From Planctomycetota bacterium (lineage in GTDB: Bacteria > Planctomycetota > Planctomycetia > Pirellulales > Pirellulaceae): DNA of 64,000 bases. The notes under the pieces are model-generated. The model was given only the letters and a program-made list of their open reading frames with translations, made no database searches and was not told the DNA's origin. Of the stretch, positions 28,999 through 52,900 are shown in pieces. Made by a program: the position numbers and the translations under genes. Every line of letters begins with the position of its first letter. Position 1 is the first letter of the stretch. The stretch covers positions 1 to 64,000 of the forward strand of contig VGZA01000025.1 of NCBI GenBank assembly GCA_016872775.1, read 5' to 3'.

Positions 28999-29277
28999 GT
29001 TTTCGTTGCGGTTGCAGGGGGTAACCGGTGCGTCCCGATACGGCTAGAATTCAAGCCACAACCTATGAAAACAGGGTGTAGCGTCCGTTGCCGCTACAGG
29101 TCTCGGATTGGTCGGGCCGCCATTCGATAGCAAAAGCTGTCGAGCTGTCATGCCCGCTCTCCATCAGGTTTCCGCAAACCAGCCGTCTCTGCGTTGCTGG
29201 TTCCGACTTTTCACCGCCGCCGTCGGCAACGGATATCGTTACGTCGAATGGGAATCGAGCAATAGGAAGCACCGCTG

Positions 29278-44365: not shown

Positions 44366-47300
44366 CTATTTCGACTTCCGCAGTTCGCGCAGCGATGCGC
44401 GGGTGGCCTGCAGCTGTTCGCCGTATTTGTTCTGCTTTTCCCGTTCCGCGGCGACCACGGGGGCCGGTGCCCGCTCGGCGAACCCTGGCGCGGCCAGTTT
44501 TCGTTCGATGGCCTGGAGCAACTCACTGAATTTCCGTTCCTCTTTCTCCAGCCGCGCGATCTCGGCATCCAGGTCGATCAGGCCGCTCAGGTCGACAAAT
44601 ACTTCGGCCCCCTCCAGGCTTAACATGGCGTGGGTTTTGGGGATGTCAATGGTGGGGCCGATCTGCGCGAGCGAAGCGTTGGCCATCGACTGAAAGTAGA
44701 TCGCCATCGGCCGCAGCAGTTCGGCGGTTTCCGCATCGGTCCGCACGGCGAATTCGATCGGCTTGCGGGGTGCGATATTCTGCCGGCTGCGGATGTCGCG
44801 CAAGGCGCCGAGCATGGTCTGGAAGCGGGCGAAGCGCTGTTCCATTTCGGTATCGACCCAATCCGAGGTGCTCGCGGGCCACGTAGCGCGCATGATCGAC
44901 TCCGCGGCCCGTTCCCGATTTCCGAGTCCTCGTACGGGCAATTGGGCGTTCAGTAATTGCCAGATTTCCTCGGTGACGAAGGGGATCATCGGGTGCAGGA
45001 GCCGGAGCAGCTGGTCCAAGACGTGGGCAAGCACACGCTGGGCCGACGTCCGACCGTCCGCCGCCTGCAGCCGTCCCTTGGCCATTTCCAGATAGAAACT
45101 GCAGAACTCGTCCCACGTGAAGTCGTACAGCACGCGGGCCGCTTCTCCGAAACGATAAGACTCGAGCGCCTCGGTGGTCTGCCGGTTCACGGTCGCTAAT
45201 CGGCTGAGTATCCAGCGATCCTCGACGGTGAGTTCCGCCGGTTCCACGTCTCCGGGTTCGAATTCGCGCAGGTTGATCAGCGCGAATCGTGCGGCATTCC
45301 AGAGCTTATTGCAGAAGTTGCGGGAGACCTCGAACCGTTCGCTGACAACCAGCCCGCGCGGAAGCGCGTTGTCCTCGGCACTGCGCGCCCACTGCGTCGA
45401 GAACTCTCGATTACATTTGCCGCACTTGATCCGCGGCAATTCGCGGTTCGCGCGCGTCTGATCGAGCAACGATTGGCAATGCGGGCATTCGAACTGCACC
45501 GGCATGCGCACGTCCTGCGTCTCCGTGCAGAGGTAGGCCAGTCCGTAACGCAACGCGTCGGGACCGAACTTCCCGATCACGTCCAGAGGATCGACGCCGT
45601 TCCCTTTGGACTTCGACATCGTCTCGCCGTCGCGATCCAAGATTTTGGGGTGGATGTAGACGTTGCGGAACGGGACGTCGCCCACGTTGTGCAATCCGGT
45701 AATCACCATTCGCGCCACCCATAAGGTGATAATGTCGCGGCTGGTGATCAGCACACTGGTCGGATAGAAACAGGCCAATTCGGCGGTCTTCTCCGGCCAT
45801 CCGAGCGTGGAGTGGGGCCAGAGCGCCGAGCTGAACCAGGTGTCGAGCACATCCTGTTCGCGCGTAAAACCGTCCGTCTCCAGGATCGACTCCAACGGAG
45901 AGTCGTCGTCGGCAATGCAGACATGAATGGTCGCAAAAGTCTCGGCTCTCCCCGCCGATCGACCATCGACATTCATGAACCGTGACTCGGCCGCGCGACG
46001 AGCCTCTTCCTCGACGTAATACGCCGCCCGCTGTTCGGTGACCCGCGGATCGGCGGATAGTTTTTCGACGTAACGCCGCGTCTCTTCCTGCGTGTCGAAG
46101 GCCCGCGACCATACCGGGATCTGGTGCCCCCACCACAACTGACGGCTCACCGGCCAGTCGCGCTTTTCACCCAGCCAGTCGAGATAACTTCTGGCATACC
46201 GAGGCGGCGTAATCGTCACGCGGCCGTCGCGCACGCCATCCATCGCCGACTGGGCCAATCGGTCCATGCGCACAAACCACTGGTCGGCAATGTACGGCTC
46301 GATCGGCGTCTTGCTGCGATCGGAATGAGCCAGATCGATCTCGCGGTCCTCGGTCTGTTCCAGCAATCCCGCCGCCTCCATGTCGGCCACGACGCGCTCC
46401 CGCGCAGCGCGGATCTTCAGGCCCTGGTACGGGCCGGCGTTGGTATTCAACGTGCCGTCCGAGTTGAGGATATTGATCATCGGCAGGGACCGCCGTCGCC
46501 CAACGTCGTAGTCATTGGGGTCGTGCGCGGGGGTGATTTTCACGCAGCCGCTTCCCATCTCGGGCTTCGCCCATTCGTCCGCCACAAGCGGGATTTCTCG
46601 GTCGACCAGCGGAAGGCGAAGTTTACGACCGGCGATCGCCATGTCGCGCAGGCGGATCAAGCCAGGCAGCACATTCCTCCGCCGCTCTTCCAGTTGCTGT
46701 AGTTCCCGCTCCAGATCGGGCTTCTCTTTGGCGGCGGCCCGCTCCAGACGGTTGCGCAACTCGTGCTCCCAGGCGTCCAGCGCCGCGGCCGGATCGGGAT
46801 GCACTGCGACTGCCGTGTCGCCCAGCATCGTCTCGGGCCGCGTTGTCGCGATCGTCACGTATTCCGGTTCGCCGGCCTGAGGGGCGATGACCGGATAGCG
46901 GAAATGCCAGAAGTTACCCTTCACCGTCTCGTGGAACACTTCGTCGTCGCTGACGGTCGTCTGCAGGAAAGTATCCCAGTTGACCAGCCGCAGACCGCGA
47001 TAGATCAGTGATTCGCGGAACAGGTCGAAGAAAGTTCTGCGTACCGCGCGGGCGCAGACCGCGTCGAGTGTAAAACGCGTGCGACGCCAGTCGCAACTGC
47101 ACCCCATCTGTTTCAGCTGGCGGAGTATTCGCGCCTCGTACTGATCTTTCCATTGCCAGATCCGCTCCACCAGCTTCGTTCGGCCCAAGTCGTGCCGCGT
47201 CTTGCCCTCCTCCTCTTTCAAGCGGCGTTCGACGACCGCTTGCGTCGCGATGCCGGCATGGTCGGTCCCCGGCATCCAGAGGGCGTTGAAGCCTTGCATC

Positions 47301-47521
47301 CGCTTCCAGCGGATCATGATATCCTGCAGGGTGTTGTTCAGTGCATGCCCAAGATGCAAGGCGCCGGTGACATTGGGAGGTGGGATCACGATTGTGAAGG
47401 GAGTTCGCGCAGGATCGGGATCGGCCTGGAAACAACCCAGTTCCTCCCAGCGGCTCGCGATCCTTGGACAGGCTTCGGCGTGATCGAAGCGATTGGGCAG
47501 TTCTTCCGGAGAAAAAGTCAT
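44366..47521 (-). CDS. valS: valyl-tRNA synthetase with a zinc-ribbon insertion
   Basis: A 1051-residue class-I synthetase charging tRNA-Val. PPNVTGALHLGHAL holds the HIGH-type motif and MSKSKGNGVDP the KMSKS motif near residue 635; the editing CP1 domain has TTRPETMLGDTA and HVLF-like blocks, and the end is the ValRS coiled coil (LDAEIARLEKEERKFSELL). A roughly 50-residue insertion after KMSKS contains CPHC and CGKC (residues 674-705) and interrupts the expected join to RNFCNKLWNAARF. The ATG overlaps the cimA stop as ATGA, so the genes are coupled. Confidence 0.94.
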   Translation of the reverse strand: MTFSPEELPNRFDHAEACPRIASRWEELGCFQADPDPARTPFTIVIPPPNVTGALHLGHALNNTLQDIMIRWKRMQGFNALWMPGTDHAGIATQAVVERRLKEEEGKTRHDLGRTKLVERIWQWKDQYEARILRQLKQMGCSCDWRRTRFTLDAVCARAVRRTFFDLFRESLIYRGLRLVNWDTFLQTTVSDDEVFHETVKGNFWHFRYPVIAPQAGEPEYVTIATTRPETMLGDTAVAVHPDPAAALDAWEHELRNRLERAAAKEKPDLERELQQLEERRRNVLPGLIRLRDMAIAGRKLRLPLVDREIPLVADEWAKPEMGSGCVKITPAHDPNDYDVGRRRSLPMINILNSDGTLNTNAGPYQGLKIRAARERVVADMEAAGLLEQTEDREIDLAHSDRSKTPIEPYIADQWFVRMDRLAQSAMDGVRDGRVTITPPRYARSYLDWLGEKRDWPVSRQLWWGHQIPVWSRAFDTQEETRRYVEKLSADPRVTEQRAAYYVEEEARRAAESRFMNVDGRSAGRAETFATIHVCIADDDSPLESILETDGFTREQDVLDTWFSSALWPHSTLGWPEKTAELACFYPTSVLITSRDIITLWVARMVITGLHNVGDVPFRNVYIHPKILDRDGETMSKSKGNGVDPLDVIGKFGPDALRYGLAYLCTETQDVRMPVQFECPHCQSLLDQTRANRELPRIKCGKCNREFSTQWARSAEDNALPRGLVVSERFEVSRNFCNKLWNAARFALINLREFEPGDVEPAELTVEDRWILSRLATVNRQTTEALESYRFGEAARVLYDFTWDEFCSFYLEMAKGRLQAADGRTSAQRVLAHVLDQLLRLLHPMIPFVTEEIWQLLNAQLPVRGLGNRERAAESIMRATWPASTSDWVDTEMEQRFARFQTMLGALRDIRSRQNIAPRKPIEFAVRTDAETAELLRPMAIYFQSMANASLAQIGPTIDIPKTHAMLSLEGAEVFVDLSGLIDLDAEIARLEKEERKFSELLQAIERKLAAPGFAERAPAPVVAAEREKQNKYGEQLQATRASLRELRKSK

Positions 47522-49119
47522 GATTTTCGAGCACCCTGTTCGTCTTTGCACAGTTTGTATTCCACCGCATCCACCAGGGCGAGCCAACTGGCTTCGATGA
47601 TGTTTTCGCTTACGCCCACGGTGCCCCACAGGTCGGACGCATCGGCACTCTCGATAATCACGCGAATTCGAGCGGCCGTGCCGGCCTCCGAGTTCACGAC
47701 GCGCACCTTATAGTCGACAAGTCGCATTTCGCGCAGGTTCGGGAAAGCGTCATGGAGCCCTTTGCGCAGCGCGGCGTCCAGAGCGTTCACCGGCCCGTCT
47801 CCTTCCGCGACCTCGTACTTCACCACGCCGTTGACGCCAATTTTCACGGTTGCCTCCGTGACCGGCGACCCCGCCAGTTCCGTTCCTACTTTGACGTGGT
47901 ACTTGATTCGTTCAAAATGGGGCTGGAACGTCCCGGCGCAGCGGCGTACCAGTAGATCGAACGATGCTTCGGCCGCCTCGAACACATACCCTTGATTCTC
48001 CAGCGCCACGACCTGGGCCAGGATCCTGTCCATCAGCTCGCGGTTCTGCTGGATATTGTGTTTGGACGTCAGCGCCATGATGTTCGAGCGCCCGGAGAGT
48101 TCGCTGACCAGAATCCGACGCTCGTTGCCAACCAGCGTCGGGTCGAGGTGTTCATAGCTGTTGGTTGCGCGAGCGATCGCATGCACATGCATACCCCCTT
48201 TGTGCGCGAAGGCACTCTGGCCCACAAACGGCTGGTTCGTGCGCATATGGATATTTGCCGTTTCGTAGACGAAGCGCGAGAGTTCCGTCAGATGTTCCAG
48301 GTTGCCGCGGGGCAGCACTTTGTAACCACGCTTTTTGAAGGCCAGATTGGCGATTACGGAAATCAAGTCGGCGTTGCCGCAGCGTTCGCCGAAACCGTTG
48401 ATCGTGCCCTGCGCTTGCACCGCCCCGGCGTCCACCGCCGCCAGCGAATTGGCGACCGCCAGTTCGCAGTCATTGTGACAATGGATGCCGACCGCCACGC
48501 CGGAATCCCGCAGCGCTTCGATCGCTTCCCGCGTGCCCGCGGCGACCTCCTCCGGCAGGCTGCCGCCGTTGGTGTCGCAAAGCACGACCAGCGACGCGCC
48601 CGCCTCCGCCGCGGTGCGCAAAGTGGTCAGCGCATAGTCCCGATTCGCCTTCCAACCATCAAAGAAATGCTCGGCGTCATAAATCACTTCCCGGCCCGTC
48701 CGCGCAAGGAACTCGGCGCTTTCGCCGATCATCGCCAGGTTCTCTTCCAGCGAGACGCGCAGCACTTCCAACACGTGGAAATCGGACGTCTTGCCAACAA
48801 TCGTACAGACCGGCGCACCCGACGCAAGCAGCGCCTGCATCCCCGGGTCGTCCTCGGCGCGAACGCCTCGGCGACGTGTCATCCCGAACGCGCAGAGCTT
48901 CGCCTGCCGAAGATTCAGGGCCCGGGCCCGTCGGAAAAACTCCACGTCCTTTTCGTTCGAAAGCGGATAGCCGCCCTCCACGTAATCGATGCCGATTTCG
49001 TCCAGTCGGCGCGCGATCTGCAGCTTGTCTTCCAACGACAAACTGATCCCCTCGCCCTGCGTGCCGTCCCGCAGCGTCGTGTCGTACATCTGGATCGTTC
49101 GGTCAGGAGTCGTTTGCAT
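47518..49119 (-). CDS. cimA: (R)-citramalate synthase
   Basis: A 533-residue member of the isopropylmalate/citramalate synthase family, CimA type by length and the C-terminal [20 protein letters not shown] region. It condenses pyruvate with acetyl-CoA to citramalate, the threonine-independent entry to isoleucine. The start [21 protein letters not shown] and [16 protein letters not shown] supply the metal-binding Asp and HxH. AAGGTGAGG lies seven bases before the ATG at 49119. It is preceded by a leader peptide and terminator (49137-49263), and valS overlaps its stop. Confidence 0.92.
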
Positions 49120-49136
49120 CGGTGCCTCACCTTAAC

Positions 49137-49171
49137 AAAAAAACCCTGAAACCCGCGAACGAGCTTCAGGG
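49137..49171 (-). terminator. attenuator terminator, 12-bp stem with UUCG loop and U7
   Basis: On the minus strand CCCTGAAGCTCG (49171-49160), loop TTCG and CGGGTTTCAGGG (49155-49144) pair along 12 bp with two G-U wobbles; seven T follow (49143-49137). It ends 17 bases before the cimA start, so it would stop transcription of cimA itself. Confidence 0.85.
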
Positions 49172-49194
49172 CGTAAATCTCAAATCTGGTCGAT

Positions 49195-49209
49195 CCCCCC
49201 CTAGGCTCG
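49195..49209 (-). promoter_or_regulatory. antiterminator segment of the cimA leader
   Basis: CGAGC-CT-AGGG (49209-49199, overlapping the last codons and stop of the leader peptide) can pair with GCTCG and CCCT of the terminator's 5' arm (5 bp plus 4 bp around a small internal loop). That pairing would exclude the terminator. Confidence 0.55.
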
Positions 49210-49263
49210 CTGCCTCCAAATCGATGGGCAAATAATAACGTCGGTTTCAACGGGAGTTTTCAT
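49201..49263 (-). CDS. putative cimA-valS leader peptide
   Basis: A 20-residue peptide, MKTPVETDVI followed by ICPSIWRQRA. The ATG has AAGGAT six bases upstream. Five of its residues are branched-chain codons: Val at 5 and 9, Ile at 10, 11 and 15, all written GTT or ATT although the genome's neighbouring genes prefer GTC and ATC. The stop TAG is embedded in the antiterminator segment. Placed between a promoter and an intrinsic terminator upstream of cimA-valS, it fits a sensing peptide for Ile/Val tRNA charging. It is too short to be confirmed by homology. Confidence 0.6.
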   Translation of the reverse strand: MKTPVETDVIICPSIWRQRA

Positions 49264-49293
49264 GACGGGATCCTTGGTCAAGCTCGACTCAGT

Positions 49294-49322
49294 AAAATAC
49301 GTCCCGACTCGCAGACTGTCAA
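49294..49322 (-). promoter_or_regulatory. candidate cimA-valS promoter
   Basis: TTGACA (49322-49317) and TATTTT (49299-49294) are 17 bases apart on the minus strand. The -35 box is a full consensus. A start near 49287 would give about 24 untranslated bases before the leader peptide. Confidence 0.6.
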
Positions 49323-49418
49323 TCTGAGCGTGGTTCCGAAACATCGGCGGGGCCATGTCCATGTTGTGCCGTCGGATCTGTTGCCGCCTGAATTTCGCAT
49401 GGGGGTCCGTTCGGTGGA

Positions 49419-49847
49419 TCAATCGTCGCATCCGTACTCCACTGCAAATCCGCCAAGAAATTCTACGCGGTGAACCTCGATTTCGTCCGTGTCACTCATC
49501 TCCAAAACAAAACGCTGTTGCCTCGTCGCGTCGTCGGCCCCAATCTCGACAGAATAGATGGATAAACTCGAAACCTCCACGCCCGGTTCAACGCGTGAGC
49601 GCATGAAGTCGCGGGCGCGCTGCTCGAATTCGGATAGGTTGTCCCGAATCTGCTGAAAGAAGTCTCGCTGCAACTGCGACGGGCCAGAATCTGACGCATC
49701 CACACTCACCATGAAGCCCGCGGTCCTGGAATGCGGAATCGACATCCAAATACCCTGCTCAAACTCGATATGTCCAAATACCGAATCATTGGCGGCAGTT
49801 CTTGGTTTCGGCTTGAATAATCTGAAGAGGTTGCCGAACAAGCTCAT
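49419..49847 (-). CDS. small hypothetical protein
   Basis: A 142-residue protein starting MSLFGNLFRLF, acidic at the end (EYGCDD). The body (FGHIEFEQGIWMSIP, DFFQQIRDNLSEFEQRARDF, SDTDEIEVHRVEFLGGFAVEYG) resembles small alpha/beta proteins of DUF/immunity type that are often single genes, but I cannot assign a family. It ends just 118 bases past the cimA promoter region and lies behind ftsK on the same strand (62-base gap). Confidence 0.5.
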   Translation of the reverse strand: MSLFGNLFRLFKPKPRTAANDSVFGHIEFEQGIWMSIPHSRTAGFMVSVDASDSGPSQLQRDFFQQIRDNLSEFEQRARDFMRSRVEPGVEVSSLSIYSVEIGADDATRQQRFVLEMSDTDEIEVHRVEFLGGFAVEYGCDD

Positions 49848-49909
49848 TAAGTAGGCACCACCCGCGATACATCCAGGAAACCCAATAGCGGACCGGGTCC
49901 CCCCAGAGG

Positions 49910-52900
49910 TCATGCTGCGCCGATGGCACGATCCTCTTCGCCGTCCTCGTCGTCGTCCTCGTCGTCGTCCTCGTCGTCGTCGTCGTCCTCGTCGTCCGCA
50001 TCTTCATCCCCGATCGGGTCCTCGTCGTGGTCGCTCGCCTCGTCGCCGTCCAACTCGTGGGACTCTTCTTCCAGCGCTGCTTCCTCGTCGAACAAATCGT
50101 CGTCCTCCAGCATCGATTCGGCATCCGGATCGTCATGCAGTGGCTCGTCGTCCTTCGTCCGCAAGTTGGTGGCGACACTTCCGCCATCGGCGGCGCGCCG
50201 GCTGTCGCCGGGGTCGCGTTGCGCGAGCGGGGAACTGAAGTCCGATTCCGGTTCACGATCGGGGATGATGCGATTGGAACGGCGTGGCTGCGTCGTGGGC
50301 CGTTCCGGGGTAGCTCGGCTGGGGGCGGGCTCTTGCGAGCGGGCCGTCGACGCCAACGCCATCATTGCAGCCGGCGGAGCAGCCGCTGCCGCGGCAGCGG
50401 CAACGACCGGTGCCGCGAGCGCCGCGGGGCGAATACCGTCTAACGGCTTCTGTCCGCTTTGCATCCGCTCCCAATCATCCAGGGAAATCAGGACTTCGCG
50501 GGCTTGCGAACCGGCATACTGCCCGACAATCCCGTCCTCGGCCATGAAGTCGATCAGACGTGCCGCGCGTCCATAACCGACACCCAGCGTGCGCTGCAGC
50601 AGCGAGACGCTGCCTCGTCCCTCACGCACCACCACATCGATCGCGCTCTCGTACAATTCGTCGCGCTTTTTGATCGCCTCGATCCCGCCTTCGGCTCCGG
50701 CGGACTCGACCTTCATGTTGACGAGTTCGCTGACGAAGTTCTGAGTCTGCCCCTTGCTGCAGAAATCGACGACCCGATTAATCTCGTCGTCACTTAAGTA
50801 GGTTCCCTGGCCTCGCAGCAGTGTGCTGGTGCCGGGCCAGAGGAACAGCATGTCTCCGTTGCCCAACAATTTATCCGCCCCCATTTCGTCCAGCACAACG
50901 CGGCTGTCGGTTCGACTGGCGACCTGGAACGAGATGCGCGCGGGCAGATTCGACTTGATCAGACCGGTGATGACGTCGACGGTCGGCTTCTGGGTCGCCA
51001 GAATCAGGTGGATGCCGACGGCGCGACTCTTCTGCGCCAGGCGAATAATGTGCTGCTCGACCTCCTTGCCCGTCGCCTGCATCATCATGTCGGCGATCTC
51101 GTCCGCGACGATGACGATGAACGGCAGGTTGAGCGGAATGCGTTTGCGGTCCTCTTCGGTTTCCGGCTGCAGACGTTCAAACAGTTCGGCCTCGCCCAGC
51201 TGGTTGTAGCTGCAGATGTGCCGCACGCCGGCCCGCGCCAGCAACGCGTACCGTTCCTCCATCTTTTCGACCGCCCAGGCCAGGATCGCCTCGGCCTTCT
51301 TCATGTCGGTGACGACCGGGTGCATCAGGTGGGGCAGGCGGCCGTATCCGCTCAATTCCACCATCTTCGGATCGATCATCAGCATGCGCACCTCGTCGGG
51401 GCGGCGGGTCATCAGCATGGACGAGATGATGGCGTTCAGGCAGACACTTTTCCCGGTACCGGTTCGCCCGGCGATCAGCAGGTGCGGCAGGGACGCCAGA
51501 TCCACGGTGAGCGGATTCCCCGAAACATCTTTGCCAAGGAAGAGCGGGATCCGCATCTTCTTGACCTTGCCGTTCGCCTCTTCAATCACCTCCCGCATCC
51601 GCACGACCTGGCGCTCTTCATTGGGCACCTCGATTCCCACCGTATTCTTGCCGGGAATCGGCGCGACAATTCGCACGCTTGGCACCCGCAGCGCGATCGC
51701 CAGATCATCGGCAAGTCCCGTGATTTTCGAGAGTCGCAGTCCGGCTTCGAGTTCCACTTCGTACTGAGCAATGACCGGTCCCGTTTCAATTTCGACCACG
51801 CGGACTTTGAAACCGAAATCGAGGAATGTCTTCTCCAGGATTTTGGCTTTACGCCGCACCTCTTTCTCTTGCGCCTCGTAATGCAGGTCCTCGCCGGGAA
51901 TCAACAGATCCAAGCCTGGCAATTCGTATTTGGAAGCGGGACCGCTTTGGCTGGCCTCGTCGAGTTCGGCGAGGACCTTTTCTCGGTCGAGACCGTCGCC
52001 CGTACGGCGGACCTTAAAGTGGGGAGCGGGCGGGGCGGGTCCGGCTGCCAGGCTCCGGCCGGATGCAACGCCAACGCGCGCTGGCGTCTTGCTCCCATCC
52101 GACGTGTTGTCGTGCTCATCCTCGAGATCTTCGTCCAATTCATTGTCGTCCTGGGTGTCGTCGAAATTGTCCGCGTCGTCGTCATCGTCCGCGTCGGACT
52201 CGTCATCGACATCCAGTTCGCTCTCGACCGAATTGACCTTGGCACCTCGGTCGTCGTCAAACTCCGCGCCCGACAATTCGTCACCCGGTTCCTCGTCGTC
52301 GTGGATTGCTTTTTTCGTCGCGAGCCGTTCCTCGGCCGCGGAACGGCGGCCCGATTTCGAATCGGCTCGCAGGTCGTCCTGCAGGTTCGCTTCGCGCTTC
52401 TTGCCCTTAATCTTTACCGCCAGCGCCTCGCGGCCAGGTTCCTTGGACGTGGCCGATTCGGCTTGCGATTCCCGCGAGGCAGCCAGCCGACGGTGGATTG
52501 CGAGAAGCAGCAACAGCCGGACGAGATTCGCGATTCCGCGCACCAGCCAGTAGTCGGTGCACAACAGCAGGCCGCCCGCCGTCAGACTGGCCGCAAGAAT
52601 CAATCCTCCGAGAAAGGCAAAGTGCGCTTCCAGGATGCTTCTGCCGACCGCGCCGACGTAACCGCCCGACCCGATGATCGAGCCGGAGCCGATGCCTGGG
52701 GCCAAGGTCGAGAGCAAGGTGCAAATGCCCGCCGCGGTGGCGAGCCATCCCAGGAACCGGAGCATCGGTGCATCCAGGGCGCGGCGGCGAAGCAGTGCCA
52801 GATCGACAACGATCAGCGACGCCAGCACGTACCAGCTTCCGACGCCAAACGCCGAACGGGTGAGATAGGCGGCTACCGCGCCCCACCGGCCGCAGGCATT

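Follow-up and report, generated by a model that had tools for sequence, protein, structure and literature searches.

The 64,000-nt window analyzed here (the whole stretch of planctomycete DNA under study) carries on its minus strand, just upstream of the citramalate synthase gene cimA, a short leader which we interpret, with a probability of about nine in ten, as a ribosome-mediated transcription attenuator that would set the expression of cimA, and of the overlapping valyl-tRNA synthetase gene valS, by the supply of charged tRNA-Ile. This reading draws on the fact that a transcript from the leader's promoter must pass a terminator before cimA, and on the comparison with relatives: an ORF with a run of Ile/Val codons recurs together with the terminator, the antiterminator covaries with its partner across loci and is spaced from the last Ile codon, the leader codons are specific to the gene that follows, Ile codons are biased toward ATT, and the promoter is conserved. 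This anatomy, codon bias, covariation, spacing and specificity across genes were established computationally. Leaders of the kind predicted for cimA were also found before leuA and before a DAHP synthase gene, and together they form one set.

In the window, cimA (47518..49119, minus strand; TIGR00977, 680.6 bits vs. a cut-off of 450) is followed by valS (44366..47521, minus strand; NF004349, 1042 bits vs. a cut-off of 704), whose start codon overlaps the cimA stop (ATGA), and the two genes would be co-transcribed. The leader itself spans 49322-49137 (minus strand, as for all leader coordinates below), and the parts listed in an earlier sequence-only reading were all recovered. A sigma-70-type promoter (49294..49322; TTGACA at 49322-49317, a 17-nt spacer and TATTTT at 49299-49294) is the sole promoter-like match within 48500-50500 (mean of 0.5 in shuffles). 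It is followed by a ribosome-binding site read from the sequence (AAGGA, 49271..49275, 7 nt 5' of the leader ATG) and by the 20-codon leader peptide MKTPVETDVIICPSIWRQRA with its TAG stop (49201..49263), which includes three Ile and two Val codons, among them the consecutive GTT ATT ATT, likewise read from the sequence (49231..49239), and a last Ile control codon, ATT, at 49219..49221. Between this ORF and cimA lies a predicted intrinsic terminator stem-loop (49143..49172) with a TTCG loop and 13 pairs, i.e., the 12 previously claimed plus one G-T, and a T7 run (49137..49143) whose first T is also paired in the stem; the stem ends 24 nt and the T run 17 nt before the cimA ATG. The predicted antiterminator segment AGCGAGCCTAGGGG (49198..49211) starts 7 nt downstream of the last Ile codon and overlaps the leader's last codons and stop, and CGAGCCTAGGGG is able to form a duplex of -17.5 kcal/mol with the 5' arm of the terminator (49172-49160). 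Antiterminator and terminator share this arm, and are mutually exclusive. In the window fold, the leader ribosome-site region was paired with the G run of the antiterminator.

Taken alone, the window leader is only mildly beyond chance, and the case for an attenuator thus rests on the comparison with relatives. Two terminator-like matches occur in the 2-kb stretch vs. 2.0 expected from shuffles, the z-score of the leader fold is -1.18, the antiterminator match was equalled in 19 of 500 shuffles, and the window's own level of Ile/Val codons (at least four per eight) was reached in about 6 of 84 shuffled regions, so that the window's copy is one of the weaker ones among these leaders. These mild values, together with a same-strand upstream ORF ending at 49419, speak for a terminator that simply ends the upstream gene and for an accidental short ORF with accidental Ile/Val codons, a reading to which we give next to no weight given the results from related loci below.

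The comparison set combined cimA homologues from 30 genomes (with a match in 30/30, of which a distant homologue, L030, and a fragment, L029, were excluded) with 80 named loci, chosen as the best among 579 confirmed stretches. Removing four loci with < 150 nt upstream and seven duplicates from the 108 anchored loci left 97 non-redundant cimA upstream regions. By our count, a terminator scoring at least 24 was found in 83 of these 97 regions, AGCCCTGAGGCC-loop-GGCCTCAGGGCT-T being a common type, and at least one compensatory change was observed at 6 out of 10 terminator pairs across 42 aligned leaders. RNAalifold, which predicts one single structure, returned only the terminator for the leader alignment A1. 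The promoter is conserved as well: among 62 leaders from relatives, 44 have TTGACA without a mismatch (letter shuffles of 64: mean 2.62, maximum 7). Overall, 68 of the 97 regions combined a terminator with an ORF ending just before it and including at least three Ile/Val in eight codons, while the other 29 had no terminator, no suitable stop or no such codons. Two cultured relatives, Lacipirellula limnantheis (L108) and Aeoliella straminimaris (L062), have passing leaders. The lack of conservation among relatives that the sequence-only reading had named as evidence against itself was thus not seen.

The Ile/Val runs far exceed chance. Across the 84 regions with a terminator and enough upstream sequence, 51 reached at least five Ile/Val in eight codons, compared to 0.58 (maximum 5) for shuffles given identical ORF-picking and two on the reverse strand. 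Ile ranked first and Val second of the 20 amino acids in cimA leader ORFs, and accounted for 21.2 and 13.2% of the last 20 residues, respectively, so that the codons match the amino acid of the controlled pathway. Within Ile, the choice of synonym is also skewed: the last 20 codons of the 68 leaders include 205 ATT, 75 ATC and 3 ATA vs. 436, 1303 and 30 in the cimA genes themselves (Fisher p 7e-54). Leaders of family f18 are likewise ATT-biased (57 vs. 28), and similar shifts occur before the other two genes, with CTA at 22% vs. 3% and CTT at 24% vs. 10% in 19 leuA leaders, and TTT at 69% vs. 45% in 14 DAHP synthase leaders. Slow decoding, or a requirement that the RNA be unstructured, could account for this bias among the control codons.

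Two further observations on these ORFs are worth reporting. Four loci (L019, L055, L056, and L082) have a terminator before cimA and a leader without an Ile run, perhaps through loss, and L019 also has a TTGACA promoter. Separately, some f19 and f22 cimA leaders include inside their ORF a hairpin GGCGCA-GGGAG-UGCGCC (L153, L154, L156, L159, L161, L162, and L181), encoding about PI(A/T)I(T/I)AAQGVR. Its synonymous sites are nearly invariant, and L156 alters two residues and keeps the pair (A-U to G-C), which suggests that conservation may act here on the RNA and not on the peptide. A search of 118 genomes gave six exact matches, all just 5' of cimA; with one mismatch allowed, one more lies before cimA (G116) and six others elsewhere.

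The antiterminator was compared across loci as well. Paired with its own terminator 5' arm, the segment reached -17.2 vs. -15.2 after permutation (0/1000 permutations as low), and the pairing dropped to -8 to -12 once the segment was slid by at least 15 nt. When the segment was located freely, the values were -20.47 vs. -16.66 (0/1000), and the 43 loci at < 80% cimA identity gave a similar result (-20.58 vs. -16.74, 0/2000). Set against the five closest relatives whose arm differs, 47 of 64 loci paired better with their own arm. Family f18 has a different core, with terminators of type CCCTCAGG and segments of type CTGAGG, the TGA of which is the leader stop in several members; its pairing was again better with the own arm (-16.75 vs. 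-14.15 permuted, 0/1000), and combining f18 segments or arms with those of the main lineage weakened it (-13.0 and -12.4). The claim that a segment over the peptide's end pairs with the terminator 5' arm therefore extends to relatives, in which this pairing covaries.

This covariation, the Ile-run ORFs and the codon match at leuA and DAHP synthase are far beyond shuffles, and a conserved promoter lies between the upstream ORF and the terminator; on these grounds we rejected the combination of an upstream-gene terminator with a chance ORF. By eye, we also noticed a recurring spacer motif, CCGG..CCGATNCAA, between leader stop and terminator in the antiterminator loop (for example in L048, L059, L064, and L103), perhaps a small hairpin.

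The position of the antiterminator was measured in the 64 loci with a pairing of -13 or better. Its median start is 10 nt downstream of the last Ile codon (IQR 7.75-13, sd 4.3) and 6 nt upstream of the leader stop (IQR -8 to -4, sd 7.0), and the further the last Ile codon lies from the stop, the lower is the offset of the segment relative to the stop (correlation -0.80). Which landmark is tighter depends on the measure: the IQR favors the stop (4.0 vs. 5.25 nt), because most loci share one layout, and the sd favors Ile, because of the remaining loci. Twelve of the loci have their last Ile at the second- or third-last codon, 3-6 nt before the stop, and by our count the segment lies beyond the stop in all of these but one (L087). 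Two f22 leaders deviate: judged by eye, about 40 nt separate their last Ile codon from the antiterminator. For leuA, the antiterminator starts a median of 7 nt past the last Leu control codon (n = 20, sd 7.3) and 9 nt before the stop, which is here the tighter landmark (sd 5.8). For DAHP synthase, it starts a median of 8 nt past the last control codon (n = 15, sd 4.6 vs. 6.1 for the stop) and 25 nt before the stop, the segment lying mostly in a Gly-rich ORF end; since the duplex window began 30 nt before the stop, offsets below -30 were invisible and some DAHP synthase cases may be clipped. The claim that the codons set the position of the antiterminator thus leans on the atypical cimA loci and on DAHP synthase. 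The placement found is one in which a ribosome stalled at the control codons would free the antiterminator, and a ribosome at the stop would cover it.

These spacings also bear on which amino acid would be sensed. The sd was 4.3 nt to the last Ile vs. 16.3 nt to the last Val (5.6 for the last Ile-or-Val, and at least 22 for eight other residues), from which the main control codon appears to be that of Ile and not that of Val, with Ile-tRNA probably the main signal. The attenuation by Ile and Val put forward in the sequence-only reading is thus upheld in its recurrent, covarying layout, and narrowed as to its codons. We nonetheless considered that the attenuator might sense Val as much as Ile, chiefly for the supply of valS. 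On the same strand, valS is downstream of cimA in 64 of 71 named loci (those with at least 900 nt, including loci that also entered via the 30-genome set), and, by our count, within about 300 nt in 56 of the 71; among the exceptions, L085 has a match on the other strand only and six have none. Val is moreover the second most enriched residue. However, the antiterminator tracks the last Ile better, and the enrichment of Val is weaker (z 3.8 vs. 11.2 for Ile in the systematic survey described below, in which Ser, also enriched in cimA leaders, reached 5.2), so that an equal role for Val seems unlikely to us. The same counts qualify the view that cimA and valS under one leader are an unfamiliar control: we found none described for planctomycetes in the open-licence literature, but the pairing itself is common in the group and not peculiar to the window's genome.

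In terms of mechanism, RNA polymerase would start near 49287 and make the leader, from which a ribosome would translate the 20-codon peptide. When Ile-tRNA is scarce, this ribosome would stall on the Ile codons with its front edge at or just short of the antiterminator (49211-49198), and the freed segment would pair with the terminator 5' arm, letting transcription proceed into cimA-valS. The start point, the stalling, the choice between structures, the readthrough and the direction of the response are what we infer here. Folding of the window leader is consistent with two exclusive structures, as had been predicted, for part of the process: for a stalled ribosome and an RNA polymerase that has just cleared the loop, folding favors the antiterminator hairpin (-21.0), and masking up to +12, for a ribosome that has reached the stop, leaves only the terminator (-21.3). 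In the full-length fold, however, the terminator still wins with the segment free (-26.5). The antiterminator is therefore favored only before the 3' arm is made, and antitermination would have to be kinetic. Across the 64 loci, the two hairpins are matched in strength, with a median of -23.1 for the antiterminator vs. -21.5 for the terminator, and the antiterminator hairpin was the stronger of the two in 38.

Terminator-antiterminator switches are also known in riboswitches and T-boxes, and the terminator could in principle be controlled by such an element or by a protein-bound RNA, with the ORF being secondary. This seems very improbable, since the codon content of the leaders follows the pathway and no Rfam match was obtained at the leader site at gathering scores; relaxed thresholds on 13 related loci gave eight matches, all below gathering scores, and a known riboswitch or T-box was rejected accordingly. 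Elsewhere in the window, an nhaA-I RNA was detected at 29074-29125 on the plus strand (RF03057, 43.9 bits, gathering score 37). There is similarly little to recommend an action of the leader on cimA translation, through ribosome stalling or reinitiation, instead of on transcription termination. Leader genes near structural genes have been proposed to raise translation via reinitiation (PMC4833913, in the part available), but here the leader stop and the cimA ATG lie 81 nt apart with a strong terminator in between, and it is part of this terminator that covaries with the antiterminator, namely its 5' arm.

The same layout was found before two other genes. A covariance model (R1) built from the cimA leaders and searched in 20 genomes also matched upstream of leuA (2-isopropylmalate synthase), with Leu runs such as MFTPALLLLLLSLLALGS and MDTKTLLSLALLLLLAPSTP, and upstream of a DAHP synthase gene, with Phe/Trp/Tyr runs such as MNSVPAYAFGFWFYFTPIGRGAGGGS and MRNCFRYFWFFYFTSRGRGPGGAL. 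In a systematic survey, a terminator was found in 24 of 27 cimA, 21 of 29 leuA and 18 of 30 DAHP synthase loci (the last being 30 taken from 45 matches to family TIGR01361). Leu reached a z-score of 12.8 in leuA leaders, with at least four Leu in eight codons in 20/21, and Phe/Trp/Tyr reached 11.6 in DAHP synthase leaders (Gly: 9.7), with at least four aromatics in eight codons in 16/18. Among loci re-anchored near contig ends, L002 and L272 were positive, L258 and L349 negative. Conversely, terminators scoring at least 24 were found upstream of only 1/20 ilvB, 0/20 trpE and 0/20 hisG genes (4/20, 3/20, and 1/20 at a score of at least 20).

The leuA leaders correspond to loci L297-L324, and the one in the window's own genome (G000:C74:7694-7785) codes for MCRSFLSPLDLRLPAFCRR. 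The DAHP synthase leaders include L201, L202, L210-L213, L215, L217, L222, and others among L267-L296. Before one of the three DAHP synthase genes of the window's genome (L220, G000:C1:63600-65800), we noted by eye an aromatic-rich frame without a stop near the terminator, possibly a degenerate leader or a sequence error. Other R1 matches (L204, L205, L206, L214, and L231-L234) were inspected and are not attenuators of the cimA-leader kind.

A protector (1:2) hairpin as in trp is at most weakly supported across loci (-14.68 for the own pairing vs. -14.22 permuted, 40/1000 permutations as low). It is tempting to speculate, as an idea we hold at somewhat less than even odds, that in planctomycetes of this class cimA, leuA and DAHP synthase, as entry enzymes of isoleucine, leucine and aromatic synthesis, share one compact attenuator chassis with swappable control codons, which would use synonyms rarer in the genes (ATT; CTA and CTT; TTT) and in which the front edge of a ribosome stalled on the last control codon, instead of a constant distance from the stop, would set the start of the antiterminator. 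Because this chassis would have no protector hairpin, a leader that is not translated would, in contrast to trp, be ON. In its compact layout and spacing, the leader may represent a variant of the attenuator kind.

Within the class, a survey of 118 genomes provided 65 further cimA upstream regions, scored for at least four Ile/Val in eight codons before a terminator. Leaders were found in most regions from f18 (17/19), f1 (9/11), f13 (2/2), f15 (1/1), and f20 (2/3), in part of those from f19 (5/10), f14 (1/2), f7 (1/3), and f22 (1/3), and by this criterion in none from f17 (0/10) or f16 (0/1). Among 20 cimA genes from other classes of the phylum, three had a terminator and two of these three also an Ile-run ORF; one locus outside the class (L379) codes for MNIQNIIISIIINIGGD, and its promoter-like site, stop and terminator follow one another as in the leaders of the class.

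With three codon specificities and a wide distribution in the class, these leaders offer a direct and testable account of a possible way in which these bacteria sense isoleucine, leucine and aromatic amino acids. They also allow the placing of control codons, stop codons and antiterminators to be compared between attenuators. The cimA leader would also tie the citramalate route to isoleucine and valyl-tRNA synthetase to one control. Among known systems, a DAHP synthase gene, aroF, lies behind a leader peptide with aromatic residues in Corynebacterium glutamicum. This is a different phylum from that of the DAHP synthase leaders described here, and TIGR01361, the family to which the latter genes belong, had no match in the C. 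glutamicum control genome.

Branched-chain leaders are likewise on record in Actinobacteria, where, in the sections available, candidate leader peptides with runs of branched-chain or Leu codons are given for ilvB leaders, leuS attenuators and the LEU element of leuA (PMC1262725). That LEU element folds as a pseudoknot whose base stem joins the Leu codons to the leuA ribosome site (same sections), whereas planctomycete leuA leaders have a plain terminator layout. Similar in composition is the ilvB-II motif of Corynebacterium, which, in the available portion of its description (PMC10272879), also has a uORF rich in branched-chain amino acids before a terminator stem, usually of 15-17 codons and tested by lacZ reporter. 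It differs in preceding ilvBNC rather than cimA, in another phylum, and in its antiterminator, for which the P1 loop pairs with the lower terminator stem on its right side, compared to the 5' (left) arm here.

For planctomycetes, the accessible counts of a T-box survey include none in its one genome from this phylum (PMC2494555). Naville and Gautheret (2010) present, in the passage available (PMC2965389), their hisS case from Firmicutes as, to their knowledge, the first leader peptide system shown beyond Proteobacteria and Actinobacteria, apart from the atypical ermC leader. Korolev et al. counted short leader genes in Planctomycetes, in a main text without cimA, valS or isoleucine, and we found no description of amino acid attenuation leaders in planctomycetes in the open-licence literature.

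The enterobacterial leu, ilv, trp and his attenuators, as outlined in the available part of PMC1183508, resemble the leaders described here in their short ORF with codons of the pathway and in the competition of a terminator (III:IV) with an antiterminator (II:III). In contrast to these, the commonest layout here puts the antiterminator over the leader's own stop, the 1:2 protector hairpin is not clearly supported, and the target is citramalate synthase, with only the single qualifying terminator before ilvB in the 20 planctomycete regions mentioned above. Attenuation as a mechanism is thus already known, and what appears to be new from these sequence comparisons is the cimA leader in planctomycetes.
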